Shown here in pieces: positions 40,882-63,721 of a DNA stretch of 64,000 nt. The position numbers were made by a program, and so were the translations under genes. How positions within the stretch are numbered: the stretch's first letter is position 1; each line of letters opens with the position of its first letter. The notes beneath the pieces were generated by a model. It had not been told where the DNA came from. It saw only the letters and a list, made by a program, of their open reading frames with translations, and searched no databases. Source of the stretch: Trichaptum fuscoviolaceum (lineage: Eukaryota; Basidiomycota; Agaricomycetes; Hymenochaetales; Trichaptaceae); contig CAJSYZ010000012.1 of the NCBI GenBank assembly GCA_910574455.1, positions 2,473,317 to 2,537,316 on the forward strand, in the 5' to 3' direction.

Positions 40882-42049
40882 TCATTTGATCCGGTGTGCC
40901 TTCTTGTATTCCGATAGAAGTTCCTGAGTATTCTCCAGTGATTGTTCCGATATCCATTGGTTCTCTGATGTCGGGTATCCTAGCCATTTGACGAGATATT
41001 CGCGTTTCCTTGGTGGTCCTCGGTGATTGAGTATTGCTTCGACTTCAAATTCTTCTTCTCCTTCAATAAGGTCAGGTGGTGGTCGTGTGTAAGATGGTCC
41101 ATGTTCGTCCGTTTCCTTGTGTGGAGTGAGAAGAGAAGCATGAAATACTGGGTGTATTTTCCAATGCTCTGGAAGATCGAGTTGATAGACATTGTCCCTG
41201 AGCTTCTTGATGATCGTAAAGGGTCCTTCTCGTTTAGATTGGAATTTCGAGGGTAGTCCGGTGCGTCTGAGGTTCCTGGCTTCTAACCATACACTTTGTC
41301 CTTCTTCCAAGGGCTGGAAGTGTGATTCCTGTGTCTCACGCTGGAATTCTTGTGCGAGAGTTAGAGCTGCTTCGGCTTCGGTTCGGAGTTCCAATATCTT
41401 GATTAAGCAAGTTTGGAGTGTGGGGATGTTACTGTCGATCTCGGATTTTTCCGTAGGAAATGATGTTGGGTCGTATCCCATGAGTAATTGGAAAGGGGTC
41501 TGCTCTGTGGTGGAATGCTTGCGATTGTTGTGAGTGAATTCCATCATTGGTATGTATCGTGACCAATGTTGGGGGTGGTTTGCTGCGTAAATTCGGAAGT
41601 ATGCTTCGATCTCCTGGTTCGTTCGTTCTGCTTGTCCATCAGTTTGTGGGTGATATGCTGTAGACATAGCCTGCTTGATGTGCAGTAAGCAGCATAGCTG
41701 TCTGAATAGTGTCGATGCAAATTGGGGTCCACGATCCGAGATTATTTTCCTTGGTAATCCGAATCGTCTGTACACATTGTCGAAGTACAGTTGTGCAGTG
41801 TCTAGTGCAGCTATTGTCTTGGTGCATGGAGTGAGTACAATTGCCTTGGTGCAGTCATGATCCACGATAACACATATGCTGTTGTAGCCATTTGATTCCG
41901 GTAGGTCGGTAATGAAATCAATATTGACTGTAGCAAAGGGGTATGTGTCTTTGTCTGCGATGATCGGGCTGAGCAGAGGTACGAGTGGATGGTGATTTAT
42001 CTTCATCTGTTGGCAAATTGCGCATCCTTGCACATATTTCGAAATGAAC
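40882..42049 (-). CDS. Element A pol, 3' part: integrase core and chromodomain
   Basis: Continues the pol frame of 53078-55034 after removal of element B. It shows the CAIC end of the HHCC zinc-binding domain, the DDE catalytic core (NIDFITDL, KIISDRGPQF, DGQAERTNQE), the GPF region and a C-terminal chromodomain (EEEFEVEAIL...YLVKWLGYP...W). The chromodomain marks it as a chromovirus, a group that targets heterochromatin. The stop is at 40882. No internal stop seen. Confidence 0.92.
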
Positions 42050-42594
42050 TGTTACGTTCACGGCTTCGGAAGACTTATCACGGAAATGATAAGTGACAAA
42101 AGCGTTGTTTGTGAACAAACAAGTGGTGAGATAAGAGTGGGCGCTTTAACGAGGCTCTCTTAGCTCGGAAGTCGTGGGTGAACAGAGTCTTTGGCACGAT
42201 GGTGTGAAAGACTATAGGAGGATTGACTTAAGTGTCATCCGAAGGCCTATGTACAGGGGTTTATATACTACAGAGGAGAGAAACATAAATAGAACGCGCT
42301 TCTGGGGCTAGCTGGGGCTAACTGGGGCTAACTGGGGCTAACTGGGGCTAACTAGGGCTAACTGTGAAACAGGGGAAATGGGGCTAACTGGGGCTACGTA
42401 GGGCTAACTGGGGCTATGGTAAAGCGAAAGGGTAATGTAAACAAAGAGGCAGTAAAAGGGGGCTACCTGGGGCACCGAAGGTTAAAGGTAAAAAGGTTAA
42501 ATGGTAAAGTCCGAGAGACAAAGGTAAGCGTAGCCTAATCGGGTTACGTGAGGTAAACAAAGGTAAACATGGTCCGTATGCTTGATGCATAACA
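42050..42594 (-). repeat. LTR of element B, left copy (3' LTR)
   Basis: TGTTACG...GCATAACA on the plus strand, with an internal GGGGCTAACT minisatellite (42302-42420). Confidence 0.95.
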
Positions 42595-42790
42595 GTACCC
42601 TGTCTCTAAGCTTGAAATTCCGTAGTAGCAAGACCTTGCGAATGCGAGAATTTCAAAGACAAATACAATGCTTATAGGATCAAGTTAAGATCAATAATGG
42701 ATGAAGCATGAGAGAGATAGAGATAGAAATCGAATGCTATAGGGTCAAATTAAGACCAATAATAAGAAAAGCAAACGAATAAGTAGACCG

Positions 42791-43530
42791 TCAAGAGAAA
42801 TGAAAATCGGAAGGTAAGGCTGCTGCAATAGCAAGCCAGTCTATGCTGGGTTGGGGGTCAGGTCGATGGAGTGGAGGAGAGGGATGTTCGTCCGGTCGAG
42901 GTGTATGTACGACATAAGGGGGTGAAACCGGGGTTGGAGGTTGCTGAGGCTCCGAAGGTTGTTGGGGTGCGTTCTGAACATCGAACTCGTTCCGTTTTGT
43001 TGGATCGAAGATAGGCATGTTCTCTTGATCATGGTAGGCTGTGGGAAACTTGGGTGGGGGTAGAGCAATTGGTGATGGGGGAGGGAGGGGTACCGGGTCG
43101 ACAAATCGAGGAGGTCCTTCAAGGTGTCCATCGTCTAGAGTGTAAGCCAGTAAACGTTCGAATTCATACTCCGTAACTCATCAGCTAGTTGTCCCATCAT
43201 CACTTGATTCAGTCGACGAATGATCACTTGAACGAAGCGAAAGTTGAATCGCTTATGTCCGCCGCGATGCTGGTCAATGTAATCTTGCAATTGGGCGAGT
43301 AGTTCATGCATGACATTGAGAGTGTAGACTGAATGGTGAAAGGGGCGCTGAGTTGAGTCGAGGACATATGGTAAGAGTCCGCTATGGAGGAGTGTGGCCG
43401 AGTACTGTTGACGAGTGGGTTCCGTGAGGGTAAACGCCTGATTGGGGAGGAGGGATTCGGTCGGACAACGAGGAGGAGGGGGACTATTCTCCTTCGTGAG
43501 GGTTCCGCGCCGGGTTCGGATGGGCGGCAT
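42791..43530 (-). pseudogene. Element B accessory ORF D4 (one frameshift)
   Basis: Starts MPPIRTRRG at 43530, overlapping D3 by 47 nt. The first frame stops at 43135, but the -1/+2 register from about 43175 continues with EYEFERLL, NMPIFD, YVVHTPRPDEH and SIDW to a stop at 42791, exactly the blocks present in A D4. A single-base change near 43175 therefore breaks an otherwise conserved gene, unless frameshifting occurs here. Confidence 0.7.
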
Positions 43531-44167
43531 GGTGAAGGGGACAGTACAAGCAGCACTCACAAGTACAGAAGGGGTCTCCTGGGTAGGGTGCAAAGTGAGC
43601 GTGCAAAGATCCCTTGTGGCGAATTCTCCGGGTGATGTAGGGCGTGTACGGAAGGTCGAGGACGATTTTGAGACCGAGTAAGAGAGGGGGGGCGTGCTCT
43701 GGGTTGAAGAAAGTGTGCCTAAGCACTAACTTCACGAGTTCCGGGAAGGGTGAGCAACGTCGAAGTCGTTCAACGTTGACGTGAGGGGTGAGCTTCGGAT
43801 CGAACAGATAGTGTTGTACCAGATCAACAGGACCGAGAGGGCCGTACTGAGGGTGAGTGGGGCGTGGGCTTGGTGGAGGTGAAGGGTACTGGAGGGGTCC
43901 GGTGACAGTGTTGTGTCGAAGGAGGTAAGTGGTGGGCCAATCGTCGGCGTTCCAACCGGGTTCGTCGGCCGGGAGGGACCAAATATTGGAACCAAATTCC
44001 GAGTCGGCTGGTCCAGGCTGGAGTTCTTCTTCTTCTTCTTCGTCAAGGAAATCAAATTTTAAGGGGGAGGGATAGAAAAAAGGGGCAGTGGCTGCGAGAC
44101 GTTGTTCAGGTGTTTCGGAAGGCGGTAGTTGATAAGTTGGGATGGGAGTGTTAAAATTGAAAGGCAT
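43484..44167 (-). CDS. Element B accessory ORF D3
   Basis: 227 residues from the ATG at 44167 (MPFNFNTP, matching A). The frame is open further upstream, but that part overlaps D2 and is not conserved. It has an acidic DEEEEEELQ run, YPSPPPSP, LVLRHTFFNPEH, PYTPYITRRIRHKG and the Cys-rich CTCECCLYCPLHH tail. Possibly a small zinc-binding protein; family unknown. Confidence 0.72.
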   Translation of the reverse strand: MPFNFNTPIPTYQLPPSETPEQRLAATAPFFYPSPLKFDFLDEEEEEELQPGPADSEFGSNIWSLPADEPGWNADDWPTTYLLRHNTVTGPLQYPSPPPSPRPTHPQYGPLGPVDLVQHYLFDPKLTPHVNVERLRRCSPFPELVKLVLRHTFFNPEHAPPLLLGLKIVLDLPYTPYITRRIRHKGSLHAHFAPYPGDPFCTCECCLYCPLHHAAHPNPARNPHEGE

Positions 44168-44210
44168 AGAAGGTAAAGGAATAGTTCTGGGTCTGGGGGT
44201 AGGTGGGAGA

Positions 44211-44888
44211 TTAAACAAGGTCTGTCTGGTCGAGGTGGGACCTTTGTAAAAATATGGGAAATACGGATGCGAACGAAAATCGGGGGTTACTGTCGGCGTC
44301 GTCGTAGTCGGTTGAGGAAGAGGAGGAGGAGGAGGGTGAGTCGGAGTTGGTGGAGGCGTTGACAAGTGTGTCGTCGCTGTAATTCGTAGTGGTGAAGGTA
44401 AAGGGGGTGCTGGTTGCCAGAGGGGGGGAGAAGATGTCCTGGGGGTTGACTGTCGTTGGGGTGGGGCTAGGATTTGGAGAAAAGGGTTCGAGGTCTGGCA
44501 GGGAGTCGATAGGACTGGGTGTCGGAGGTGGTGGAGTCTGCTGGGATTCCAGGGGGGTGCTAGAGGTGAGAGGTTGCTCTTGCTTGTGGTCACGAAGTTT
44601 TTCGATGGTGATTTTATAGAACTCGAGGAGTGCATACAGCTGGAGTGCGTATCTCACTTTGGTCGGACCAGGGGCGTTTCGGATGCGGTTATTGATGTCT
44701 GGGATGAGTATGTCCAATGGTTCCTTATCAGGATGATCGTCCTTAAACACAAAATAGAACAGATGAGAATTGAGAATAATCTGTTTGTCATGCGATGACT
44801 GGTTCGCTATCACTTGGAGTTCCGTCAGCTGGCGTTCCACTAAGCTGGAAATGAGAGGTGGGATCGACTCCTGTGATGAAGAACTCAT
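44211..44888 (-). CDS. Element B accessory ORF D2
   Basis: 225 residues from the ATG at 44888, which overlaps the end of D1 by about 100 nt. The N-half is mostly helical (LVERQLTELQVIANQSSHDKQ... HLFYFVFKDDHPDKEPLDILIPDI). The C-half is low-complexity Ser/Pro/Thr with LEPFSPNPSP. It aligns with A D2 in both halves. No known domain. Confidence 0.7.
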   Translation of the reverse strand: MSSSSQESIPPLISSLVERQLTELQVIANQSSHDKQIILNSHLFYFVFKDDHPDKEPLDILIPDINNRIRNAPGPTKVRYALQLYALLEFYKITIEKLRDHKQEQPLTSSTPLESQQTPPPPTPSPIDSLPDLEPFSPNPSPTPTTVNPQDIFSPPLATSTPFTFTTTNYSDDTLVNASTNSDSPSSSSSSSTDYDDADSNPRFSFASVFPIFLQRSHLDQTDLV

Positions 44889-45102
44889 TATTCGGCCCAA
44901 GGCCAACGTAAATATGAGTGCTTCGTCCTAGATAGTGTAGTTCTAGATCGTGTATCCAGAAGGTGGTGGGTCGGCGTTCTGGGAAGATGTACCAGATGAG
45001 AAAGAGATGGAAGAGTTGGAAAGAGGTGCGTGTGATGATAGGGTGGATTTGTAAATGAGCTATCCAGATAAGAAATCGGATAATGTCATAGAAGGTGTGC
45101 AT
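44788..45102 (-). CDS. Element B accessory ORF D1
   Basis: 104 residues from the ATG at 45102. It has a hydrophobic N-terminal half (FLIWIAHLQ..., FHLFLIWYIF) that could be membrane-associated, then HIYVGLGPNNEFFITG, the part shared with A D1. TATAAAT lies about 40 nt upstream, which suggests a separate transcript for D1-D4. Function unknown. Confidence 0.62.
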   Translation of the reverse strand: MHTFYDIIRFLIWIAHLQIHPIITRTSFQLFHLFLIWYIFPERRPTTFWIHDLELHYLGRSTHIYVGLGPNNEFFITGVDPTSHFQLSGTPADGTPSDSEPVIA

Positions 45103-45138
45103 GAGAATGGGGAGGAAAGTGGGGTGGCTTCTGGCGCA

Positions 45139-45145
45139 TTTATAC
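45139..45145 (-). promoter_or_regulatory. Candidate internal promoter TATA box before D1 (element B)
   Basis: The sense strand reads TATAAAT, 36 nt before the D1 ATG and inside the 300-nt gap after pol. The matching place in A has TATTTC. This is inference only. Confidence 0.35.
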
Positions 45146-45402
45146 GAAGTTTCTAGTTGATCATGTGGTCATTGAATCAGTAGAAAGCTTCTGGGGCACA
45201 GTGGGGCATGTTGGTTCTTCGATATCAAACTTCGGGGGCAAGAAGTCTTGTTATCTAGCCGCAGTGAGGCAAGAAGTCTGAGGAGGGGGCTAAGAAGTAG
45301 TGCTTGTAGGTCCAAGGTGTCCAAATCGGGTTACGTGTGGCGTAAATTCTGCCTAATCGGGGTACGAGTGGCGCGTTGTGTGTCCAATTTGTCCAAATTG
45401 GG

Positions 45403-48400
45403 CTACTTCAGCTTGTGCAACTCCTTGTATGCTGATAGAAGTTCTTCTGAATGCTTTAGTGCGTCTTCTGAGGCCCATGTGTTGTTGCTAGTTGGGTATC
45501 CTAACCATTTGATGAGATACTTCCTTCGATTCGGGGCTCCTTTGTGCTGTAGAATTGCTTCTACTTCAAATTCTTCTTCTCCATCGATAAGGTCAGGTGG
45601 AGGTTTTGAATAGGCTGGCCCATGTTCTACTGTCTCGGTGTGGGGAGTTAGAAGGGAGGCGTGGAATACAGGGTGAATCTTCCAAGTTCTAGGCAGTTCG
45701 AGTTCATAGACATTATCCCTGAGTTTTCGCTTGATAACAAAGGGTCCTTCGCGCTTTGATTGAAACTTTGAGGGTAGTCCGGTTCTTCGGAGGTTCCTTG
45801 CTTCTAACCATACAGATTGTCCAATGTATAGTGGCTTGAAATGGGTAGATTGAGCTTCGCGCTGATATTCCTGTGCGAGTGTTAGAGCTGCTTCTGCGTC
45901 ATTTCGGAGTTCTAGTATCTTTGATAGGCGATTCTTGAGAGTCGGAATGTTGCTATCAAGTTCCGATTTTTCCGAGGGGAATGATGTTGGATCATATCCC
46001 ATTAGTAGTCGAAAGGGGGTCTGTTCCGTGGTTGAATGTTTCCGATTGTTGTGTGTGAATTCCATGAGGGGGATGTATTTGCTCCAGAGGTGGGGGTGAT
46101 TTGCTGCATAGATCCTGAAGTATGCTTCGATCTCCTGATTGCTGCGCTCTGCTTGTCCATCAGTCTGTGGGTGGTATGCTGTAGACATTGCCTGCTTGAT
46201 GTGAAGCAATCGGCATAGCTGTCTGAACACTATAGATGCAAACTGTGGTCCTCGATCCGAGATTATTTTCCTTGGTAATCCGAATCGTCTGTACACATTG
46301 TCGAAGTACAGTTGTGCAGTGTCTAGTGCAGTGATTGTCTTGGTGCATGGAGTGAGTACAATTGCCTTGGTGCAGTCATGATCCACGATAACACATATGC
46401 TGTCAAATCCATCAGATTCTGGGAGGTCTGTGATGAAATCGATGTTGACGGTTGCAAACGGGTAAGTGTCTTTATCTGCAATGATCGGGTTGAGTGGAGG
46501 TACAAGAGGATGGTGGTTGATCTTCATCTGTTGACAGATAGCACATCCTTGGATGTATTTCGTCACGAACTGTTGCATTCTTGGCCAGTAATATGTTCGT
46601 CGAATTTGTTCCATTGTATTCGCTACTCCAGGGTGATTTCGAGTCGGTAAGTCATGATATAGTCGTAAGAGGTTGCGCATGATTTCCGTGTTCCTTGGCA
46701 CATAGATCTTGTTCCTGAAGTGTACCAATTGATCCTTGATTGTGAAGTCGGTCATTTTGGGTTTGGTGAGTGGTAATTCTTTCTGTAGAAGGTTCATCGC
46801 TTCCTGAATATCTCCAGTTTCTTTGCGTATTTGGAGGTGAAGGTCATCGACATTAATGATGTTCCTGTCATCTTCTTCGGCTTCTTCAATTCGGGTGGCT
46901 AGGAGTTCCATTTCTTTGAGAAAAACTTTCTCTGGTAGAAGTGTAACTTCGTTGCTAAGTTCTCCTTCCGTTTTAAAATGGTCCGCACGTCGGGATAGGG
47001 CATCGGATTGGATCATGTGTTTTCCTGGTATGGCTTGTATCTTGTAATTGTATCTTGAGAGTTCATTCTGCCATCGAGCTTGTCGAGGGGTCAAGCGTTG
47101 GGGTTGTCTCCAATAAGTCAGATTCTTGTGGTCGCAATGAATCGTAACTGTATGCGGGCTTCCAAGTAGATAGTGTCTCCACATTTGGAGTGCTCGAATA
47201 ATAGCAAATAGTTCTCTGTCATATATTTGCCAGTTGCGTTGTGTCGGGTTGAGAGCTTGAGAAATATAACCTATGGGTTTGAGTTGACCGTTTTCGTCAT
47301 GTTGGCGTAGTGCTGCACCGGTAGCTACGGCTGAGGCGTCCGTTTCAAGATAGAATGGTTTGTGTGGGTCGGGTTGCATAAGGAGGGGTTCCTTCGAAAA
47401 GAGTTCCTTGAGTGTCTGAAAAGCCTTTTCACATTTGTCTGTCCAGACAAAAGGTGTGTCCTTCCGTTTAAGTTGATCGAGTGGTCGGCATATAGTTGCA
47501 TAGTTCGGAATGAATCTGCGATAGAAGTTGGTAAAACCTGTAAATGATCTGACGTCCTTGAGACATTTCGGAGTGGTCCAGTCAAGTATCCCTTGTATCT
47601 TGGAGGGGTCTGTCTTGATCTTTGATTCCGAAATAATGTAACCAAGAAATGGTACTTCGAGTTGGTGAAATCGGCATTTCGCTGGTTTGACATAGAGTTT
47701 ATTGTCCTTTAGGATTTGAAAAACTTCTTTGGTGTTTTCAATGAGCTGCTTGAGAGTCGGGGCATGAATGAGTAGGTCGTCCATGTAGACAATGACCTTG
47801 TTCTGGCGTATTTGCTCCGCTAGAATATCATTCATGAAGCGTTGAAAAACCGCAGGTGAGTTGCATAGACCGAAAAACATAACGGTTGGTTGATAGAGTT
47901 TCCTGTTGCATACAAAGGCTGCTTTCCATTGATCAGATTCCTTGATGCGAATGTTGTGATAACCTTGTCGGATATCGAGGGTAGTGAAGTATTTGGATCC
48001 TCGGAGTTGATCAAGTAGTTGCTGCGAGTTTGGCATAGGATATGCATCTTTGACTGTATGCGAGTTAAGGTATCTGTAGTCCTGTACTGGTCGAAGTGTT
48101 CCATCTTTCTTATCAATAAAGAAGAAAGGTGATGCCATTGGGGAGTTAGATTCCTTGATAAATCCTTTGTTGAGCAAGTCGTCAATTAAAGTAGTGAGAA
48201 TCGGTTGTTGATGGTATGGGACCGGGTACGGTTTGTGAATTTTCGGCACAAAACTTGGTAATGTTTTGATCTCCATATCATAGGGTCGGGCAGGGGGGTA
48301 GGTTTGGATTTCATTCTCTGAGAAGATGTCCGCATATTCCAAGTATTCGTCTGGAATATTAAGTTTCTCCTTCGGCTTTTGTTTTTGTTGTTCGAGTCGA

Positions 48401-48831
48401 GTAGAGACAGTGATCTTGTTGATAGTGATCGTATCATCATTCCAGTTAATCTGGGGCTTTGCCTGTTTGAACCAAGGTAGTCCTAGAATAACATCGTCGC
48501 TTGGAATGTGTGTCCGGTAAAATATTGTTGAGGTTGAATGAGGGTGGGTGAGATTCAATCGAATCCGTTCTGAAACTGTTCCGTTCTTGTTCAGAGTTCC
48601 ATCGGCATTGCTAACTTGTAAAGCTTTATCAAGTTTATGCATTTTGATGTTGAGCTTATCAACTAGGTCTGAGTTGATAAAGTTCAGTTGTGCTCCGGTG
48701 TCAAGAAGGGCATTGATAGTGATGAGGCGTCCGTTAACGAGTAATTTGACCGGGATTCGAAATGATGAGATGTTGCCATTTAGAACAACAGTGTTGAGTT
48801 GAACCGGGTTAACCAACTCTGAGCTGTTCAA
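45403..48831 (-). CDS. Element B pol: protease-RT-RNase H-integrase-chromodomain
   Basis: A 1142-residue open frame entered by -1 frameshift from gag. Domains in order: aspartic protease (LLDTGAQ, D44), reverse transcriptase (TLDIRQGYHNI with D286; VYMDDLL with YMDD 349-352), RNase H (ETDAS D498, E540, HCDHKN D567), integrase with HHCC zinc domain (H726, H733, C763, C766), DDE core (D798, D859, E895) and a C-terminal chromodomain (about 1075-1135). All catalytic residues expected of an active chromovirus are present. It copies element RNA into DNA and inserts it. The sequence is very close to the pol of element A (RT and integrase blocks nearly identical). Confidence 0.96.
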   Translation of the reverse strand: MNSSELVNPVQLNTVVLNGNISSFRIPVKLLVNGRLITINALLDTGAQLNFINSDLVDKLNIKMHKLDKALQVSNADGTLNKNGTVSERIRLNLTHPHSTSTIFYRTHIPSDDVILGLPWFKQAKPQINWNDDTITINKITVSTRLEQQKQKPKEKLNIPDEYLEYADIFSENEIQTYPPARPYDMEIKTLPSFVPKIHKPYPVPYHQQPILTTLIDDLLNKGFIKESNSPMASPFFFIDKKDGTLRPVQDYRYLNSHTVKDAYPMPNSQQLLDQLRGSKYFTTLDIRQGYHNIRIKESDQWKAAFVCNRKLYQPTVMFFGLCNSPAVFQRFMNDILAEQIRQNKVIVYMDDLLIHAPTLKQLIENTKEVFQILKDNKLYVKPAKCRFHQLEVPFLGYIISESKIKTDPSKIQGILDWTTPKCLKDVRSFTGFTNFYRRFIPNYATICRPLDQLKRKDTPFVWTDKCEKAFQTLKELFSKEPLLMQPDPHKPFYLETDASAVATGAALRQHDENGQLKPIGYISQALNPTQRNWQIYDRELFAIIRALQMWRHYLLGSPHTVTIHCDHKNLTYWRQPQRLTPRQARWQNELSRYNYKIQAIPGKHMIQSDALSRRADHFKTEGELSNEVTLLPEKVFLKEMELLATRIEEAEEDDRNIINVDDLHLQIRKETGDIQEAMNLLQKELPLTKPKMTDFTIKDQLVHFRNKIYVPRNTEIMRNLLRLYHDLPTRNHPGVANTMEQIRRTYYWPRMQQFVTKYIQGCAICQQMKINHHPLVPPLNPIIADKDTYPFATVNIDFITDLPESDGFDSICVIVDHDCTKAIVLTPCTKTITALDTAQLYFDNVYRRFGLPRKIISDRGPQFASIVFRQLCRLLHIKQAMSTAYHPQTDGQAERSNQEIEAYFRIYAANHPHLWSKYIPLMEFTHNNRKHSTTEQTPFRLLMGYDPTSFPSEKSELDSNIPTLKNRLSKILELRNDAEAALTLAQEYQREAQSTHFKPLYIGQSVWLEARNLRRTGLPSKFQSKREGPFVIKRKLRDNVYELELPRTWKIHPVFHASLLTPHTETVEHGPAYSKPPPDLIDGEEEFEVEAILQHKGAPNRRKYLIKWLGYPTSNNTWASEDALKHSEELLSAYKELHKLK

Positions 48832-48837
48832 AAATTT
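48828..48837 (-). promoter_or_regulatory. -1 frameshift site, element B gag/pol
   Basis: GCA AAT TTT TGA in the gag frame contains the canonical heptamer A AAT TTT abutting the stop. A -1 slip reads TTG AAC AGC into pol. The same heptamer sits at the same place in A. Confidence 0.8.
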
Positions 48838-50819
48838 GCAGCATCGTAGTTGCCATATTCATCGAAATCTTCATTGTCGAGTTCGTCCAAAGTGTTGAAT
48901 AGTTCCTCTCGAGACTGATCATCGAGACTGGTAATAATCTCGTTGATTTGATATGCCTTGTCTTCCAGGGTGTCCGTTTCATCATAGTCATTGTCATCCA
49001 CTTCCATTGCATTGATTCGGGGCTTGAATCTGCGTTTAGCACCTGGGAAGCGTCCTTGGGGTTTTCCTCTAGGTTTGAAAGAGTTCCTAGGACGGGATGG
49101 GCGTTTGGGACATTTGTTCGCCATATGACCGGGTTTTTTGCAATAGAAACAAAGACCTTTGTCTCTAGCTTCCTTCTGCTTCTCTGGGGTGAGCTTGTTG
49201 AAATACATAGCATTGATATTGAATTCTTCCATCTTGTCTTCGAGTGAGGGTTCCGATTCCGGTTCCGGGTCGGAGTCAACTTCCATTTCATGAATTCGAT
49301 ATCTGCGGTTGAATCGGCGTTTTGGATAGCTGTACTTTTTCCTAAAGAATTGTGAAGGTTTCTGTTGATGAGGGGGATTCATCCTTTCGTATTGTAGACC
49401 GAATTTGAGGGCATTCTCGTAGTACGGGTCCATGAGAGGTTTGCCTGCTGTGTCCTTTGCCATATTGTCTTCAATTCGGATCAGTTCCCTTTGGATCGAA
49501 ATTGGAAGGCCTTTCTTGAACAGATTGGTGAGAACTGTGGTGTCTTCGATTCCTGCATCGTAAGCTAGTCGTTGGAATTCGTAGACATATTGATCTGTGC
49601 GCATGCCAGGGGTTTGCTTGAGTTTCATAAGTTCCTCATATGCGTCTGCAATGTAGTCTGCAGATATGAAGTGTTCACGAAAATCTTTCTTGAATTTTGC
49701 CCAAGTATAATCCCATGGTTTTCCGTCGGCTAGTTTCTTGTTTCCTTTGGTGATGATGCTGTTTATGAAGGTACCAGCTGATCCTAGATTGCAGAATGTG
49801 GCTGCAAGTCGAACCTTGTCTTCGTCTGTAGTGTAACCGGGTGTGAGAATGATGTAGTTCTCCATGAGATCGAGCCATCGCCTAGCATCCTTGCGACTGC
49901 CATCAAAGTTGAATGGTTTATTGGCTCCATTTCTACGTTCTTCGATTTTGTCCGGTGGTCCGGATGTGTTGACTGCTCCTCCAGAAGTTCCCATTGGTGG
50001 CGATGGAGGTGGAGGTGGCGGTGGAGGTGGCGGTTCAGGGGTCGGAGAATTAGACTTTTTGGGTTGGTGGTCAGGGTCGAAGGGATTGATGTAGTCTAAT
50101 TTGTCTTCTTCCTTCTTTGGAGGTTCTTCTTCCTGCTTCGGAGGTCTTTCTGGTGCTTTCCCTTTGTCAGTGCCTTTTGATTCTGTCCGAAGTCTGAGAG
50201 TTTCAAGTTGGTCCGCTAGATTTGTGAGGACTGATAGTTCTTCCGATGTTTGCTGAGTAGAGGGTCCAGCAAATGATCGGCTGTGTCTAACTCTTGAGGG
50301 GCTCCCAAGAAGGGGGTGGATAGGAGAGGTTTCCTCCTTAGTTCGATGAGTGGAAGGTACCGGGGTAGTGAGGTCGGGTTGTGTAGTATTCGGAGGTGTT
50401 GATGGATGTTCAACCGGTTCAACTGAGGAGGTCTCAGAGGCTTCAGTTGCAGCTTGTGAAGCGGTAGCAGATACTAGTAGTGCGTCTCCAAGTACTAAAG
50501 GTGATGCTTGAGGTGTACCTTTCCTAGTAAGTTCGCGATAACGTTGTTCTGCGTCTTTGGGTTCTACTGCTTCCCAATTGAGATTAAGTCTGCGATAGAA
50601 TGCTCCGGGGTTGCGTCTGTCTTTGTCCGGTATGTACTTCCAATCTTGTGCTTGTTTGCTGTAGAAGATGTATTGCTTAACAACACCTTTCTGTCGGTAC
50701 CAGCAACGTTTGAGATAATCGAAATGGGCGTTTGTGGGGGCTGATGGAGGTAAGGATACAAATGAGGTGTCAATGTGAGGGGTGTCCGGTGGTGGTGGTC
50801 GAGTTGCCAGGATGTTCAA
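48828..50819 (-). CDS. Element B Gag, with an AUG-less N-terminal extension
   Basis: The frame is open from just after TGA (50820-50822) to TGA at 48828. The first ATG in it, and the first on the sense strand from the predicted RNA start, is at 49994. It follows a poly-Pro run and gives about 388 residues: MGTSGG..., a capsid-like region (KPFNFDGSRKDARRWLDLMENY, FKKDFREHFISADYIADAYEELMKLKQ) and one CCHC knuckle (CFYCKKPGHMANKC). The 275-codon extension upstream is conserved in element A (DYLKRCWYRQKG... versus DPVNRAWYRLDK...), yet has no Met codon. How the extension is translated is not clear. Gag packages element RNA. Confidence 0.85.
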   Translation of the reverse strand: MNILATRPPPPDTPHIDTSFVSLPPSAPTNAHFDYLKRCWYRQKGVVKQYIFYSKQAQDWKYIPDKDRRNPGAFYRRLNLNWEAVEPKDAEQRYRELTRKGTPQASPLVLGDALLVSATASQAATEASETSSVEPVEHPSTPPNTTQPDLTTPVPSTHRTKEETSPIHPLLGSPSRVRHSRSFAGPSTQQTSEELSVLTNLADQLETLRLRTESKGTDKGKAPERPPKQEEEPPKKEEDKLDYINPFDPDHQPKKSNSPTPEPPPPPPPPPPSPPMGTSGGAVNTSGPPDKIEERRNGANKPFNFDGSRKDARRWLDLMENYIILTPGYTTDEDKVRLAATFCNLGSAGTFINSIITKGNKKLADGKPWDYTWAKFKKDFREHFISADYIADAYEELMKLKQTPGMRTDQYVYEFQRLAYDAGIEDTTVLTNLFKKGLPISIQRELIRIEDNMAKDTAGKPLMDPYYENALKFGLQYERMNPPHQQKPSQFFRKKYSYPKRRFNRRYRIHEMEVDSDPEPESEPSLEDKMEEFNINAMYFNKLTPEKQKEARDKGLCFYCKKPGHMANKCPKRPSRPRNSFKPRGKPQGRFPGAKRRFKPRINAMEVDDNDYDETDTLEDKAYQINEIITSLDDQSREELFNTLDELDNEDFDEYGNYDAANF

Positions 50820-51451
50820 TCAGTAGTTTGAATTCCGTTGGTTTGATACTGTGCCGGAATCGGGGGTACTGGGGGAATAGGGGTGGCTTGTCGAATGGGA
50901 CGGTTTGGGGGTGAAATGAGTGGAATGTCACTTGGGGATAGGCTAGGTTGACAACCGCAGCGATTGATATAGGTTTGAACGTCTTCTTCAACGTCAGGCC
51001 AATAGCAAACGTAATCTAGATGTTCCCTGGTGGTTTGGACTGTGTAATGATAGTTGGTTTCCGGATGGATGTGAGCTGCGTATATGAGATCGTTCCGAAG
51101 GGCTTGGTTGCTTCCAACGTAGGCTCGTCCTTCTGTCCAAAGTAAGTCTACCCTTAGTTTCCAATTGGTGGGGAATCGTCGGTTTCGGATAAGAAATGCC
51201 AATGATGTGATTACTGAATCTCCGTCGTAGCTTTTCTTGATTCGTTGATCTAGTCCGTTGAGTTTCAGAAGTCTAAAGTTCTCTGCAATTTCTGTCTCGT
51301 CTGATATTCCGGGTTGGATAGGGTGAAGTCGACTAGTTCTGGGGATGATTAGATTTGCCAGGTTGCCTATTTGATTTATGAATAGAGCTGCTAAGTCTTC
51401 TTCTGATCCGTCTGAGCTGGGATTGGAATGGTCCAGGGGTAGGTGTGTCAA
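50816..51451 (-). CDS. Element B accessory ORF U2, integrase-zinc-finger-like, no AUG
   Basis: About 211 residues, open frame, no ATG; bounds are those of the open frame. The middle (LLWTEGRAYVGSNQALRNDLIYAAHIHPETNYHY...REHLDYVCYWPDVEEDVQTYINRCGC) follows the layout of the integrase HHCC zinc-binding domain (H-x-H, then YWP, then a Cys pair), but with CxC in place of CxxC. It aligns along its length with A U2. The stop overlaps the start of the gag open frame by a few bases (TGATTGA). It is possibly a duplicated, repurposed integrase N-domain acting before or with Gag. Confidence 0.6.
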   Translation of the reverse strand: MTHLPLDHSNPSSDGSEEDLAALFINQIGNLANLIIPRTSRLHPIQPGISDETEIAENFRLLKLNGLDQRIKKSYDGDSVITSLAFLIRNRRFPTNWKLRVDLLWTEGRAYVGSNQALRNDLIYAAHIHPETNYHYTVQTTREHLDYVCYWPDVEEDVQTYINRCGCQPSLSPSDIPLISPPNRPIRQATPIPPVPPIPAQYQTNGIQTTD

Positions 51452-51926
51452 GCTGGATAGGTGAACCTAGAAGGGGGATGGGAGTTCCTTCGCGTTTGAT
51501 CTCTTGTTTGATCGGAGGGGGAGGGGGTGTATGCTGTTCCTGGATCCTTTGAGTAACAGGTGTTACAGGTGGTAATTGCCTGTTATATGTTCCTATTTCG
51601 CTTGTCCAATAGTGTTGAGGATCTTCGAAGTTAGATGATGCTGAGCTAAGATAGGTTTCCCTTGTGAATTCTTGTCCGAGTCGAGGGGCTGGGTACGAAG
51701 TAACAAATGGATTGGTTACTATGCTTTCTCGAGCTTCGGATGGGGGTTCTGCTCTTGTTGTCTGCTCTGTATCAGATAGTTCGAGTTCGGATGGAGTGTG
51801 GGGTGGGGTAGAGTTGGTGGGGATGTCTGTGATGCGGATGGGGTCAAAGATAAAAATCTCCTGCACGTCTTCCAACAATCTTTCCGTATGATTGGCAACT
51901 CGTATTAAGACCTTCAGGTTGGGCAC
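51333..51926 (-). CDS. Element B accessory ORF U1, no AUG
   Basis: About 197 residues from a GTG in the context GAAGTGCCCAACCTG, which is identical in A. No ATG is present; the open frame starts at a stop near 51967. It is conserved with A: PNL(K/R), TPPHxPSEL, ETYxxS, DFENP/NFEDP..HW/YW, N(R)LLPPVTP/NRQLPPVTP. The rest is Pro/Ser/Glu-rich. It overlaps U2 by about 120 nt. Translation would need a near-cognate start codon or a spliced leader. Function unknown. Confidence 0.55.
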   Translation of the reverse strand: MPNLKVLIRVANHTERLLEDVQEIFIFDPIRITDIPTNSTPPHTPSELELSDTEQTTRAEPPSEARESIVTNPFVTSYPAPRLGQEFTRETYLSSASSNFEDPQHYWTSEIGTYNRQLPPVTPVTQRIQEQHTPPPPPIKQEIKREGTPIPLLGSPIQLDTPTPGPFQSQLRRIRRRLSSSIHKSNRQPGKSNHPQN

Positions 51927-52513
51927 TTCCTTGGGTGATCTCTTCCCTTGAGCTACTTGTTGTTACAACACGAGTGGGTTCTCCTAACTCTCTTCTCGAG
52001 TGCTCGTCCGGTATGTTACTTCGGTTCGCTGGATAACAACTTCCTGTTGTGTTCACCGGTATTTCTGTCGTCAACGAGTGAAGCTATGTCTCTTTGGATC
52101 TTCGCTATATGCGTCTAGCAGTTTCACTAGGTGGATCGGACCGTTCCTCTGCTTGCTTTCTTCTCTTCAAGTTACCTGGGCTGGCTCTGCTTTCTGATCG
52201 GGTCGCGAACCTCAAATCCCGCTTACACCAACCTTAATGTAACAAGGACCGTGAATTCTGGGCGTGAACCTGCTTAATGCTTTGGGTCTGTTTCGAGCGT
52301 CTGTGTAGTTGAATACACAACACAAGTTATGTGTCAATCGTATGTTGTTCAAGTTCTTTCTTTCCTACTTTGAAAGGTTAGCAATCAATGGCCAGTTGTT
52401 CACTTACTTTGAAAGTATTCCGGATTAGTTCTTGTAGGGTGGATTGTTTAATTCCGATGGTGGAAAGTGGAGTCAAGTGCAATAGTCTTGGCTGCTTTCC
52501 AGGTTATGGAAAG

Positions 52514-52524
52514 AAGTCAATCCT
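52514..52524 (-). promoter_or_regulatory. Self-primer binding site, element B
   Basis: Sense AGGATTGACTT, three nt inside the 5' LTR, is exactly complementary to AAGTCAATCCT in the LTR (52698-52708). In Tf1 the first 11 nt of the RNA fold back to prime at this position. Confidence 0.75.
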
Positions 52525-52527
52525 AAT

Positions 52528-53072
52528 TGTTACGTTCACGGCTTCGGAAGACTTATCACGGAAATGATAAGTGACAAAAGCGTTGTTTGTGAACAAACAA
52601 GTGGTGAGATAAGAGTGGGCGCTTTAACGAGGCTCTCTTAAGCTCGGAAGTCGTGGGTGAACAGAGTCTTTGGCACGATGGTGTGAAAGACTATAGGAGG
52701 ATTGACTTAAGTGTCATCCGAAGGCCTATGTACAGGGGTTTATATACTACAGAGGAGAGAAACATAAATAGAACGCGCTTCTGGGGCTAGCTGGGGCTAA
52801 CTGGGGCTAACTGGGGCTAACTGGGGCTAACTAGGGCTAACTGTGAACAGGGGAAATGGGGCTAACTGGGGCTACGTAGGGCTAACTGGGGCTATGGTAA
52901 AGCGAAAGGGTAATGTAAACAAAGAGGCAGTAAAAGGGGGCTACCTGGGGCACCGAAGGTTAAAGGTAAAAAGGTTAAATGGTAAAGTCCGAGAGACAAA
53001 GGTAAGCGTAGCCTAATCGGGTTACGTGAGGTAAACAAAGGTAAACATGGTCCGTATGCTTGATGCATAACA
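52528..53072 (-). repeat. LTR of element B, right copy (5' LTR and promoter)
   Basis: Sense strand: TATATAAA about 40 nt before AAGTCAATCCT, the predicted RNA start (about 52708). A U5 hairpin ACTTATCA...TGATAAGT follows near the LTR end. Confidence 0.95.
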
Positions 53073-59773: not shown

Positions 59774-61468
59774 GTCTGATTCGGGTTCAGAATCTATGTC
59801 CATCTCGTTGAGTCGTCGTCTGCGAAATTTGTTAAATCGAGGTCGATTATATGAAGATTGTCCATAACGGTTGCGGAGTCAATTGAACGGGCGGTTGTCC
59901 TGATAGATCTCCTCGTATGATTTTCCTATCTTCCTGGCTGCTTCGTAGTAAGGTGCCATTATCTTTATTCCATTGTCTGGAACTGGGATATCCTTCTGAA
60001 GTAGTGCGGTTCGCGTGTGGCGGAGTAATCCATTCTTGAACATGGAAAAGAGTACTGTGAAGTCGGTGATGTTCGCTTCACGTGCGAGTCGCTGGAAGTT
60101 ATGAATGTAATCGTCGATTTTGTCCGTGGGTGCTTGTTTAAGGCTAGAGAGTTCCTTGAATGCGTCGGCGATGTAATCGGTGGAAATGAAGTGTGACTTG
60201 AATTTGTCAACGAATTGTTGCCAAGTCATAACCCATTGTGCATTGTCCTGTTCGTCTTTAACATTCTTTGCAAAGATTGCAGCGGGTCCTTCAGTGCAAA
60301 AGGAGAGTGCAAATTGTATCTTGCGTTGATCGGTTGCATAGTCCAAGTCGTTGAGTGCCAAGTAGTTTTCAACTAGGCTAAGCCATCGGCTAGCTTCGCT
60401 TCGTTTGCCGGTAAAGTTAAAAGGTTTGTTTGCTCCGGTACCTCGCGGTTGATGGTCTGCTTGATCGGCCATTTCGACTATCGCTGGGGTTCCTGGGGGT
60501 GTAGGTGATGGTGGGGGTGGGGGTGGCTGTGGAAGGTTTTCCTGATCGGGGTGTTCGTCGTTTTCCAGAATTTCGGGTACAGGTGAGCTTCGGTTACTAT
60601 TGTTGGCGTTAACCGATGTAGATCCTTCGGCTGAGTGTGCAGATCCTTCGGCGGTGTGTGCCGTGTCCTCGGCTTCTGAGTCTTCTTCTGATTTGTCTGA
60701 AGTTTCTGCATCAGATTCTCGTCTGCGCCTTCTGAGTTCAGCTTCCTCTTTCTCTAGCTGCTCAAGAGTGAGGATAGTTTGTGTCTCCTGCGAAGTATAG
60801 TTCTTGGGAAGTGGAGTCCAAGTGGGTATCCAAGTTGCGCCTTCTTCAAATCTGGTGTCAATGCGGAGTCCTTCGAATTGTCCTACAAGTTCTGGTTCTT
60901 CGGATTCGAGTTCAGAAACAGGTGCGGGTGTTTCAGCCTTCGGTTGGGTGAATGTGAGGAGTGGGGAGGTTTGTTTAGCTTTAGGTGCTGCTGCTGCTGC
61001 GTAAGATAATGAGGGTAGTGCTGTCGATTCAGCAGGTGGTGCTTCGGTTTTAGCTGGTGGTGCTTCTGGTTGAGTAGTGGTTAATGGCGAGTGTTGTGAA
61101 GGAGCGGGTGATGCGAGTTGAGAAGAAACAACTCTGGGTGAGTTAAGTCGACTGCCTGTTCTTGATGTTCTTGCAAGTATCTGGTCAATTTCTTCCTGAC
61201 TGGGTTCGATTCCTGCGTACCAAGTATTAACCTGTTTGTAGTATGTGGGTGGGTTCTTGATGGTATGCGAGATTGCTCTCCAAGTGTCGTGTCCTGAGTG
61301 AAAATGAAGGTAGACTTTTCTTCTGAATTTGTCAAGTCTGTACCAGGCTCGGTTTACTGGGTCAAATTCAGCGTTTTCTGGGCGGGTAACTCCAACGGGT
61401 ACTTGTGCTGCTATGGGTATGTATTTTCCTGGGACTGGTGGTCTGTCTTTTGGCGCCAGTTTAACGAG
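59774..61468 (-). pseudogene. Element A Gag, N-terminal extension and capsid region (premature stop)
   Basis: The open frame runs from just after TAA (61469-61471) to 59774, broken by TGA at 59879-59881. The first in-frame ATG is at 60472 (MADQADHQ), followed by ANKPFNFTGKRSEASRWLSLVENYLAL and FVDKFKSHFISTDYIADAFKELSSLKQ. This is the same capsid block as in B (MGTSGG...). Upstream of that ATG the extension (EFDPVNRAWYRLDKFRRKVYLHF...) is conserved with B but AUG-free in frame. The TGA follows RPFN and would truncate Gag before the zinc knuckle. Confidence 0.82.
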
Positions 61469-61483
61469 TTACTGAAATTTAAT

Positions 61484-61966
61484 TCAGTTGGTGTCTTCGT
61501 TTGCTGGGGGAGTCGGAGTAACGGTTCGGCTTCCTTCTTCGGGTTCAACAGGGGGTGGAGTAATGGATCGGATGGATGCTTCGAGAGGTGGGCTGGCAAC
61601 TCGGGTAGGTGGTTCAGAGTGTAGTAGGTAACAAATACACTTCCGTATTTCGGTTGCAACGTCCTGGGGTTGTCCGGGCCAATAAACGATTGATGTGAGG
61701 TTCAAGAGGGTTTCTCTTTCGGAGAAATGATCAATGGCGTTGTCAACTTTGGTGTGGCAGATTCCAATGAGGCCTTTGCGAAGGTAACATTCGGGGATGT
61801 ATGGCTTTCCTTCGAACCAAAAGATGCCGTGTCGGTAGATCCAATTAATGGGGTCGTGTCGTATAGAGTGTAGACCGAGTTGGAGGTATTGTAGGTCGTA
61901 TTTGGAGTTCTGTTGAATCAGATGAACTAATGCACTGTTGACAAGGTGCTGATAGTTGTCTTCCAT
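61484..61966 (-). CDS. Element A accessory ORF U2, integrase-zinc-finger-like
   Basis: 160 residues from the ATG at 61966. B lacks this ATG, so it may be a later C-to-T change and the true start may be non-AUG. It contains IFWFEGKPYIPECYLRKGLIGICHTKVDNAIDHFSERETLLNLTSIVYWPGQPQDVATEIRKCIC, an HHCC-like layout with YWPG and a CxC pair. It ends at TGA, 15 nt before a TAA in the same frame, after which the Gag extension opens. Confidence 0.6.
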   Translation of the reverse strand: MEDNYQHLVNSALVHLIQQNSKYDLQYLQLGLHSIRHDPINWIYRHGIFWFEGKPYIPECYLRKGLIGICHTKVDNAIDHFSERETLLNLTSIVYWPGQPQDVATEIRKCICYLLHSEPPTRVASPPLEASIRSITPPPVEPEEGSRTVTPTPPANEDTN

Positions 61967-62582
61967 TAGTTGGTCGAAGTTGGGGGCGGGAGCGGGAGCT
62001 TGATTCGCCAGATTGATTAATCGGTTGTTGTAAGGTAAACCTAAGTCGTCTTCCTGTCCTTTGGAAAGTTTGTCTGAGATTTCCTAAAGTTCTGGAAGGT
62101 CCTGGGGCGGGTGTGGGAGTTCGTTCGGATGTTCGAAGTTGAGGGAAGGGACGTAGGGCTCGTTCTACGCTTGGGGGTGTAGTGGTTGGAGGGTTGGAGT
62201 GATTCGGAGTTACTGGAGGTAGTAATCTGTTGTGCTCAGATACTTCGTTCCAATGGTGGGTTGGGTTCTCGAAATCTGTTCCTTCCTCGGCGGAGTATGC
62301 GTAGGTTTCCTGAGTAACAGTGGGTTCTAATCGAGGGGGTACAAGTTGATCGTATAGGCTTTCGTTATCTTCTTGTGTTCGATGTTCGTACTCGGAATAG
62401 TCCTGTGGGTCTGTCCTGCTTTCGTCAAGTTCGGAGGGGTTATGAGGGGGTGTGTCGGATTGGTATGAAGTGGGTTGTAAGTCGTAGATGGAGACGGGGT
62501 TAAGGATGTTGATCCTTAGTACGCCTGCCAACGGTAGTTCCGTGCGATCGGCGAGTAGTATAGTAATCCTCAGGTTGGGCAC
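61845..62582 (-). CDS. Element A accessory ORF U1, no AUG before the overlap with U2
   Basis: About 245 residues from GTG at 62582 in the same context as in B (GAAGTGCCCAACCTG); an in-frame TAA lies five codons upstream. Conserved with B in the N-terminal PNL(R/K) block, PPHNPSEL, ETYAYS, DFENPTHHW and LLPPVTP. Pro/Arg/Ser-rich C-half. No known domain recognised. Confidence 0.55.
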   Translation of the reverse strand: MPNLRITILLADRTELPLAGVLRINILNPVSIYDLQPTSYQSDTPPHNPSELDESRTDPQDYSEYEHRTQEDNESLYDQLVPPRLEPTVTQETYAYSAEEGTDFENPTHHWNEVSEHNRLLPPVTPNHSNPPTTTPPSVERALRPFPQLRTSERTPTPAPGPSRTLGNLRQTFQRTGRRLRFTLQQPINQSGESSSRSRPQLRPTNGRQLSAPCQQCISSSDSTELQIRPTIPPTRSTLYTTRPH

Positions 62583-63158
62583 TTCCTCGGGTTATCAACC
62601 CTTTGAGCTACAAGAGTATGCGTGAGTGATATTAACGTCTTCGGATACCTTGTCCTTTCTGTCTTCCTAGGTTCGCTGGATAATCTGTTTCGATGTTCAC
62701 CGTGTATTGCTGTCGTCTACGAGTGAGGGTATGCTTGTCTTCCGGCTGTGGCAGTTTCTGTGGTGGATGAGACCTTTCCCCTGCTTCCTTCTTCTCTTCA
62801 AGTTACGTTGGACGTGGCTAAGCTGCTTGAATGGGTCGCGATCCTCTGCTTCACGCTATCACCAACCAAACGCGTAACAAGGACCGTAAATTCTGTCGTG
62901 AACCTGCTTAATTTCTGTGATTACTTGTCTGTTGCTTCCTTCCAAGTATAGCTCTGTATGCTTGGTGTATTCGATCGTACTGTCGTTCGTATTCCTTTCG
63001 TTCCTATTTGATAGTTAGTAGACAAGGGCCAGTTGTGATACTTAACCGTCAGTATTCCGGATTGGAATGCGTAGGGTGTACCGATTTATTCTGCTGTAGA
63101 ATGTGGTAGAGCGTAGAGGGGGGTGTTTCGGAGTTGAGATCGATCTCAGATGAGAATG

Positions 63159-63169
63159 AAGTCAATCCT
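63159..63169 (-). promoter_or_regulatory. Self-primer binding site, element A
   Basis: Sense AGGATTGACTT, 3 nt inside the LTR, complementary to AAGTCAATCCT at 63339-63349 in the same LTR. Same arrangement as in B. Confidence 0.75.
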
Positions 63170-63172
63170 AAT

Positions 63173-63721
63173 TGTTACGTTCACGGCTTCGATGGACTTA
63201 TCACGGAAATGATAAGTGACCAAAGCGTTGTTGGGTGAAGTAGCAAGTACAGTATAGAGGGTCCGCTTTGTGAGGGTCTCTATACCGGAAGTCGTGGGTG
63301 AACAGAGTCTTTGGTACGTGATTGTAAAAGACTATAGGAGGATTGACTTAAGTGTCATCCTGGGGCGCTATGTACATGGCCTTATATACTACAGAGAACA
63401 ATAGAGTGGAGCAAGGAATGAAACTACATCATCGCAGGTCAGAAGTGGAGTGAGTCCGTCATAGTGGCTCTAATTAATGGAGGATGATGTCAGATCGGAA
63501 CATAGGTGGAGTAGAGTGGAGTAGAATGATGTATCATCGGAGTGGAAGGTCCTGGGGCTCTCGGAGTGAAGGTGAAGTGAGTGGAGCCATCGGAGTGTGG
63601 AGTTGATGATGAAAGAATGATGCAATGTGTGTACGCACATGCAGGTAGAAAGGGTGAGAGAAAAAGATGAGGGGGAACATAAACAATGTGTAAACAAGGG
63701 TAAGCAGCTTGATGCGTAACA
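63173..63721 (-). repeat. LTR of element A, right copy (5' LTR and promoter)
   Basis: Sense strand: TATATAAGG about 39 nt upstream of the predicted RNA start (63349). The hairpin ACTTATCA-CGGAAA-TGATAAGT (plus strand 63196-63217) is close to the LTR end. Confidence 0.95.

Follow-up and report, generated by a model that had tools for sequence, protein, structure and literature searches.

Leaders of nearly 3 kb with few or no AUGs in putatively self-priming Ty3/gypsy retrotransposons of Trichaptum fuscoviolaceum: candidate non-AUG starts and proposed leaky scanning to Gag

Why should a retrotransposon RNA run for about 2.7 kb through long open reading frames (ORFs) without a single AUG? The question is raised by a stretch of 64 000 nucleotides of the basidiomycete Trichaptum fuscoviolaceum (contig CAJSYZ010000012.1, positions 2,473,317 to 2,537,316), here called the window, whose minus strand carries element B. 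This is a Ty3/gypsy retrotransposon flanked by long terminal repeats (LTRs), with the Pol order protease, reverse transcriptase, RNase H, integrase and a C-terminal chromodomain (Pfam; Chromo, E = 3e-12), and it apparently sits nested inside a relative, element A. As the initial annotation had claimed, the minus strand of B contains no ATG in any frame from the predicted RNA start at 52708 down to 49995, next to the ATG of Gag; the count is still 0 when it begins at 52716, and the opposite strand holds 55 within 49995-52708. Three open frames, U1, U2 and a Gag extension, occupy much of this leader, and methionine is absent from their 700 residues. We propose, with a probability of roughly three in four, that the leader is a polycistronic scanning track purged of AUG, on which U1, U2 and an extended Gag would start at near-cognate codons and from which leaky scanning would lead to the Gag AUG. 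The parts of the locus are the following.

52528-53072, minus strand: 5′ LTR of B (repeat pair 42047-42594 and 52525-53072; termini TGTTA...TAACA)
52698-52708, minus strand: self-primer AAGTCAATCCT of B, the predicted RNA 5′ end, with its exact complement at 52514-52524
52514-52524, minus strand: primer binding site AGGATTGACTT of B, complementary to the self-primer
49995-52708, minus strand: ATG-free leader of B (0 ATG in 2714 nt)
51914-51931, minus strand: 18-nt block AGGAAGTGCCCAACCTGA, the same in A and B, with the likely U1 start inside it (GTG at 51926 or CTG at 51917)
51333-51917, minus strand: U1 frame of B from CTG to stop, 194 codons (the open frame spans 51962-51333)
50816-51361, minus strand: U2 of B from candidate start CTG (AACCTGGCA), 181 codons, integrase-H2C2-like, with C-x-C
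49995-50810, minus strand: Gag extension of B from candidate start CTG (ATCCTGGCA), 5 nt past the U2 stop, 272 codons
48828-49994, minus strand: Gag of B from the first AUG of the RNA, 388 codons (Pfam Retrotrans_gag and zf-CCHC)
45403-48858, minus strand: Pol frame of B with protease, reverse transcriptase, RNase H, integrase and chromodomain (Pfam)
42050-42594, minus strand: 3′ LTR of B
60473-63349, minus strand: homologous leader of element A in the window, with 3 ATG (61966, 61790, 60711)

In the mechanism that we have in mind, ribosomes would load at the 5′ end of the RNA and begin to scan. Small fractions of them would initiate at the U1 site, at the CUG or GUG of U2, and at the CUG or ACG of the extension; the remaining majority would continue to the first AUG, which lies about 2.7 kb downstream of the predicted RNA 5′ end, and make ordinary Gag. 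Any AUG in the leader, in frame or not, would divert ribosomes from Gag, a cost that would account for the lack of methionine in the three open frames. That in-frame AUGs are purged as well suggests that the short Gag is the major product, and selection would presumably maintain U1, U2 and extended Gag at a low level and Gag at a high one. Both the use of the candidate codons and the scanning of the full length are what we infer from sequence comparison.

How far the absence of ATG departs from expectation was estimated by dinucleotide-preserving shuffles of the B leader, which gave a mean of 23.5 ATG and a lowest count of 13 in 300 (z = -6.2). Nucleotide composition is thereby ruled out as the cause of the loss, and the figure of about 40 expected ATGs in the initial annotation turns out to be too high for this G-poor stretch, since even base composition alone gives only ∼32 (four regions summed). 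In all six leaders tested, no other of the 64 trinucleotides is as depleted as ATG; when one leader each from A, B and a third family, D, is pooled, 0 are observed for 64.6 expected from dinucleotide shuffles. The same trinucleotide test gave no sign that near-cognate codons have been purged as a class. The deficit is common to all parts of the leader, including the untranslated first ∼780 nt, where 6.9 (B), 6.6 (A) and 7.0 (D) ATGs are expected and none is found, as continuous scanning predicts. Codon-preserving shuffles yield a mean of 0.3 ATG for U1, 6.8 for U2 and 1.5 for the extension of B, but this is a weak test, because the codons present have already been chosen without ATG. On the minus strand of the window the next-longest ATG-free runs, of 1392 and 1079 nt, both lie within the homologous leader of A. 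Downstream, Gag of B contains 34 ATGs in 1167 nt counted from its own, and pol 71 in 3425 nt.

The borders of the desert fit a scanning interval. The placing of the RNA start at 52708 gains support from the exact complementarity in B between AAGTCAATCCT at 52708 and AGGATTGACTT at 52524, 11 nt long and situated 3 nt beyond the LTR end; D carries a different pair, AAGTTCGATCT and its complement (11-12 nt), in the same relation. With a primer site complementary to the predicted RNA 5′ end, B and D would both belong to the self-priming elements of the Tf1 type. The last ATG before the desert precedes this predicted end by 9 nt in A and B and by 12 nt in D, and the downstream border is the Gag ATG in all three families, beyond which ATGs return. 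A tRNA scan of the window gave no match.

The desert recurs in the three families, the last of which, D, is newly found here: it was reached via the A form of U2 and has the same three-frame layout as A and B, with a U2 that is ∼26% identical to the B protein (∼32% for U2 of A). Over the 59.09 Mb searched (12 contigs), 24 of the 36 complete leaders contain no ATG, and all 36 together hold 18. For B, the sample comprised the window copy, the 20 best further ones of 41 matches in all and 6 extra copies, less one (L047) that misses its 5′ part; from RNA start to Gag, 18 of these 26 leaders have zero ATG and 8 have one or two. Three of six complete A leaders, 2877-2911 nt long, are ATG-free; the remaining three contain 3, 2 and 1 ATG, at differing places. 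One leader counted as complete, L056, misses the initial nucleotides at the RNA start. L059, a seventh copy of A, was excluded for an insertion in the extension; it is ATG-free from the RNA start to position 2531. In D, three of four leaders have no ATG over ∼2.55-2.57 kb and the fourth has one. Related copies with abundant ATGs, which the initial annotation had named among the outcomes that would refute its proposal, were thus not found. Two subgroups can be told apart among the B copies: identity between them is 59-67% in a block of the extension (49995-50819; L012, L014-L028) and 93-100% in the upstream leader, a pattern that resembles the outcome of a segment swap. Within this diverged block (59-67% identity) the ATG-free state holds in most copies of both subgroups. 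Another observation concerns L010 and L011 (G000:C12:1591333-1595346 and 1610790-1614804), inverted B copies about 19 kb apart with two ATGs in common and a U2 stop in each, which may be one dead copy that was duplicated.

Selection against ATG is also visible in the variation among B leaders. In the gap-free columns of 21 aligned leaders, ATG-creating variants common to more than one copy number 2 for 13.8 expected, whereas ATG-creating singletons number 3 for 3.5 expected; the shared variants are those that have passed through replication. Our own Poisson estimate for two or fewer at a mean of 13.8 is ∼1e-4.

The comparison of copies indicates that U1 and U2 evolve as protein. The ratio of nonsynonymous to synonymous polymorphism (pN/pS) is 0.37 for U1 (20 copies) and 0.19 for U2 (19 copies) of B, 0.23 (4 copies) and 0.25 (3 copies) for those of A, and 0.10 for U1 of D (2 copies). 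By codon position, the variable sites of B number 17/10/28 in U1 and 10/6/30 in U2, and 16/12/11 in the 5′ untranslated region (UTR). Among the 21 B copies, U1 is full length in 20 and U2 in 19, and in 16 no stop codon interrupts the extension between the end of U2 and Gag. The earlier statement that all three upstream frames are conserved as protein in A therefore stands for U1 and U2; for the Gag extension, the comparison between A and B was made by eye only.

Where could these frames start? The initial annotation named no start codons, but candidates can be given. Few near-cognate codons in the leaders have a purine (R) at -3 together with G at +4, and fewer still are followed by GC(A/G). 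The motif R-N-N-(CTG/ACG/GTG)-GC(A/G) occurs at eight sites in the three reference leaders: two in B (U2 CTG at 51361 and extension CTG at 50810), three in A (copy L058: U2, extension and one more) and exactly three in D (copy L060: U1 ACG, U2 GTG and extension ACG). Seven of the eight are in frame and mark candidate starts of U1, U2 or the extension. The three D sites, with no additional one, recur in two more D copies. For an arbitrary position in the leader, the chance of having such a motif nearby and in phase is 1.5% (B), 2.0% (A) or 2.4% (D). The extension candidate is the third codon of its open frame in A and B and the 24th in D, and it lies 5 nt (B, D) or 24 nt (A) past the U2 stop; the U1 candidate of D is codon 4 of its frame, and the U2 candidate, codon 35 (B), 24 (A) or 63 (D), lies at the end of the overlap with U1 or later. 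Two observations support the U2 candidates. In B, the open frame ahead of the CTG varies like U1 sequence, unlike U2 itself. In D, 6 of the 14 places shown (out of 49 matched) have a TGA 75 nt ahead of the GTG and in frame with U2; by our reading of the frames this TGA is silent in U1, and all four copies read are without a stop downstream of the GTG. In A and B the U1 start is bracketed by the 18-mer AGGAAGTGCCCAACCTGA, which is identical in both and has at least 66 places in the genome, counting exact matches only. At the candidate positions, the codon is CTG for the extension in 36 of 36 places genome-wide in A and in 21 of 21 copies of B; for D, likewise genome-wide, it is ACG for U1 in 51 of 52 (one ATG), ACG for the extension in 49 of 50 and GTG for U2 in 50 of 50. 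The D copy in which ATG replaces ACG at the candidate U1 start lies at G000:C10:2234054-2234086. A restart at TTG at the junction of U2 and the extension was considered and dropped, most B copies having TTA there.

As for the proteins themselves, U2 of B matches the integrase H2C2 zinc-binding domain (PF17921) above the Pfam cut-off (32.5 bits, E = 9e-8), whereas U2 of A and D stays under it (19.8 bits, E = 9e-4). A U2 profile gave weak matches in PDB, the best being Ty3 Gag-Pol (E = 0.019), followed by PFV integrase (E = 0.39). The putative ligands H132, H140, C170 and C172 are invariant in the six aligned rows from A, B and D, but their last two are spaced C-x-C in all six, where the H2C2 domain has C-x-x-C. 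U2 further differs from that domain in being a separate protein ahead of Gag. Since Pol of B holds an H2C2 domain of its own, U2 has the appearance of a second copy that has diverged and is encoded ahead of Gag; its role is perhaps nucleic-acid binding in packaging or integration, which is a guess. In the protein database, U2 of B matched 1 of 126 candidates and the U2 alignment 3 of 1910, all three on short contigs; full Gag of B had no match at E = 1e-5 among 7997 candidates scored, and U1 of B has no Pfam match. We lean towards the view that there is a clade of self-priming Ty3/gypsy elements in which U1, an H2C2-like U2 and a 272-codon Gag extension would start only at CUG, ACG or GUG, most of them in the context R-N-N-start-GCR, along an AUG-free track of 2.6-2.9 kb selected in three diverged families.

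Non-AUG initiation of the three frames and leaky scanning to Gag, as put forward in the initial annotation, are supported by the sequence tests run, but several findings weigh against them. CTG, GTG and ACG are as frequent in the leaders as expected and TTG is enriched twofold, and among the shared variants of B, GAT, ACG, ATA and ATT are also at about half of expectation. U1 of A and B is without the strong-context motif; one of the three motif sites of A (L058) is out of frame, and the A copies L064 and L065 carry an extra site distant from any ORF start. The near-invariance of the candidate start codons weighs little, because their flanks are near-invariant too, and no stable hairpin was found downstream of the candidate starts (two U1 rows being placed one nucleotide off). 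Twelve of the 36 complete leaders hold one to three ATGs, and of the 40 D places covering the U2 query in full, 25 contain a stop within it.

Other explanations can be imagined. One is that ribosomes that have translated U2 stop and restart at the CUG or ACG just past its stop codon, thus making the extended Gag. The distance of 5 nt in B and D would suit such a restart, the 24-nt gap in A less so, and forward reinitiation from U1 to U2 is impossible since the U2 candidates precede the U1 stop by 26 (B), 47 (A) or 106 nt (D). Moreover, reinitiation alone would not demand purging of the first 780 nt. We hold this explanation to be unlikely, although it could coexist with leaky scanning. A fusion of U1, U2 and Gag, produced from a single non-AUG start in U1 by two programmed frameshifts, would account for the U1/U2 overlap seen in all three families. 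However, the passage from U1 to U2 is +1 in A and B but -1 in D, and that from U2 to the extension is -1 in B and D but stays in the same frame, with intervening stops, in A; frameshifting is less likely because frame relations differ between families, and we give it very little credence.

Splicing is a further alternative, with a possible junction in B, where a consensus donor (A|GTAAGT, 52407) and an AG|TG within the conserved 18-mer would together yield an AUG in the U1 frame; more generally, an intron could join the frames or create an AUG at its junction, and U1 would then start at AUG in the spliced RNA. But the consensus donor is absent from all three complete A leaders scanned, B has no CTRAY branch site near the 18-mer acceptor, D has ACG and no such acceptor at that place, and intronic ATGs need no purging, so that we regard this as improbable. 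The same reasoning bears on a leader intron or an internal promoter beside Gag, named in the initial annotation as what could undo its proposal: ATGs in a removed intron or outside the RNA should escape purging, and both are therefore disfavoured by the position of the borders in three families and by the lack of a consensus 5′ splice site in 3 of 3 A leaders. Finally, ribosomes might reach Gag by internal entry or shunting, ATG having been lost for some other reason. A and B do share conserved patches in the 5′ UTR, and the self-primer is paired in a predicted fold; yet a bypassed part could keep its AUGs, as pararetrovirus leaders keep short upstream ORFs according to the part of the source available (PMC5902531), while here every part is purged. 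A scan of 49900-53072 against Rfam gave no match up to E = 1, and composition is excluded by the shuffles, which makes this possibility highly improbable. As a separate observation, the 5′ UTR of B contains a possible 43-nt intron (52365-52407, with GTAAGT, CTAAC and TAG) that has no counterpart in A.

Leaky scanning over an AUG-free coding track has a precedent in rice tungro bacilliform virus (RTBV). From what the available text describes, its first ORF starts at AUU, ORFs I and II have no internal AUG, and leaky scanning extends over 900 nt (PMC5902531). Both systems have a retroelement RNA with long ORFs free of internal AUG before the main ORF; in the present case the non-AUG start of the first ORF is a candidate. 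In RTBV, as described there, ribosomes are shunted past a leader with short upstream ORFs and ORF II starts at AUG (PMC5902531). Here the distance is 2.6-2.9 kb, about three times longer, no AUG precedes Gag, three ORFs are predicted to have non-AUG starts and the element is an LTR retrotransposon; nor is there a shunt leader of the RTBV type with a 5′ short upstream ORF, since no AUG follows the predicted RNA start. In mammalian PEG10, which derives from a sushi-type retrotransposon, a Gag-like protein starts at a CUG upstream of an AUG and both are used, but the portion of that report available describes a 34-residue extension and a single ORF, with the AUG 102 nt downstream of the CUG (PMC2800197). 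Tf1 and Tj1 have self-priming in common with B, their primer binding site being complementary to the RNA 5′ end; the available text on them describes Gag, protease, reverse transcriptase and integrase and leaves upstream ORFs unmentioned (PMC4600332). In another basidiomycete, Cryptococcus, use of ACG, AUU and CUG starts has been reported, as far as the accessible part of that study goes (PMC7049704). Among titles and abstract openings of the open-licence literature, we recognised no AUG-free multi-ORF leader in an LTR retrotransposon. The principle would thus be that of RTBV; what appears to be new is the scale, the setting and the succession of three non-AUG ORFs.

If our proposal is right, eukaryotic ribosomes would be able to scan nearly 3 kb of coding RNA, and an LTR retrotransposon would be polycistronic by leakiness of start codons alone. 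The leaders would offer a natural system for measuring the reach of scanning and the grading of near-cognate starts. Gene finders that require ATG would miss all three upstream proteins, and other genomes can be screened for the absence of AUG as a signature. Also raised is the question of why a retroelement should encode a protein resembling the integrase zinc domain ahead of Gag.

At the other end of B, the 2.8 kb between pol and the 3′ LTR (42595-45402) contain long overlapping sense frames without a Pfam match, and the ATG density of the stretch is only 8.9 per kb, compared with 20.7 per kb in pol.

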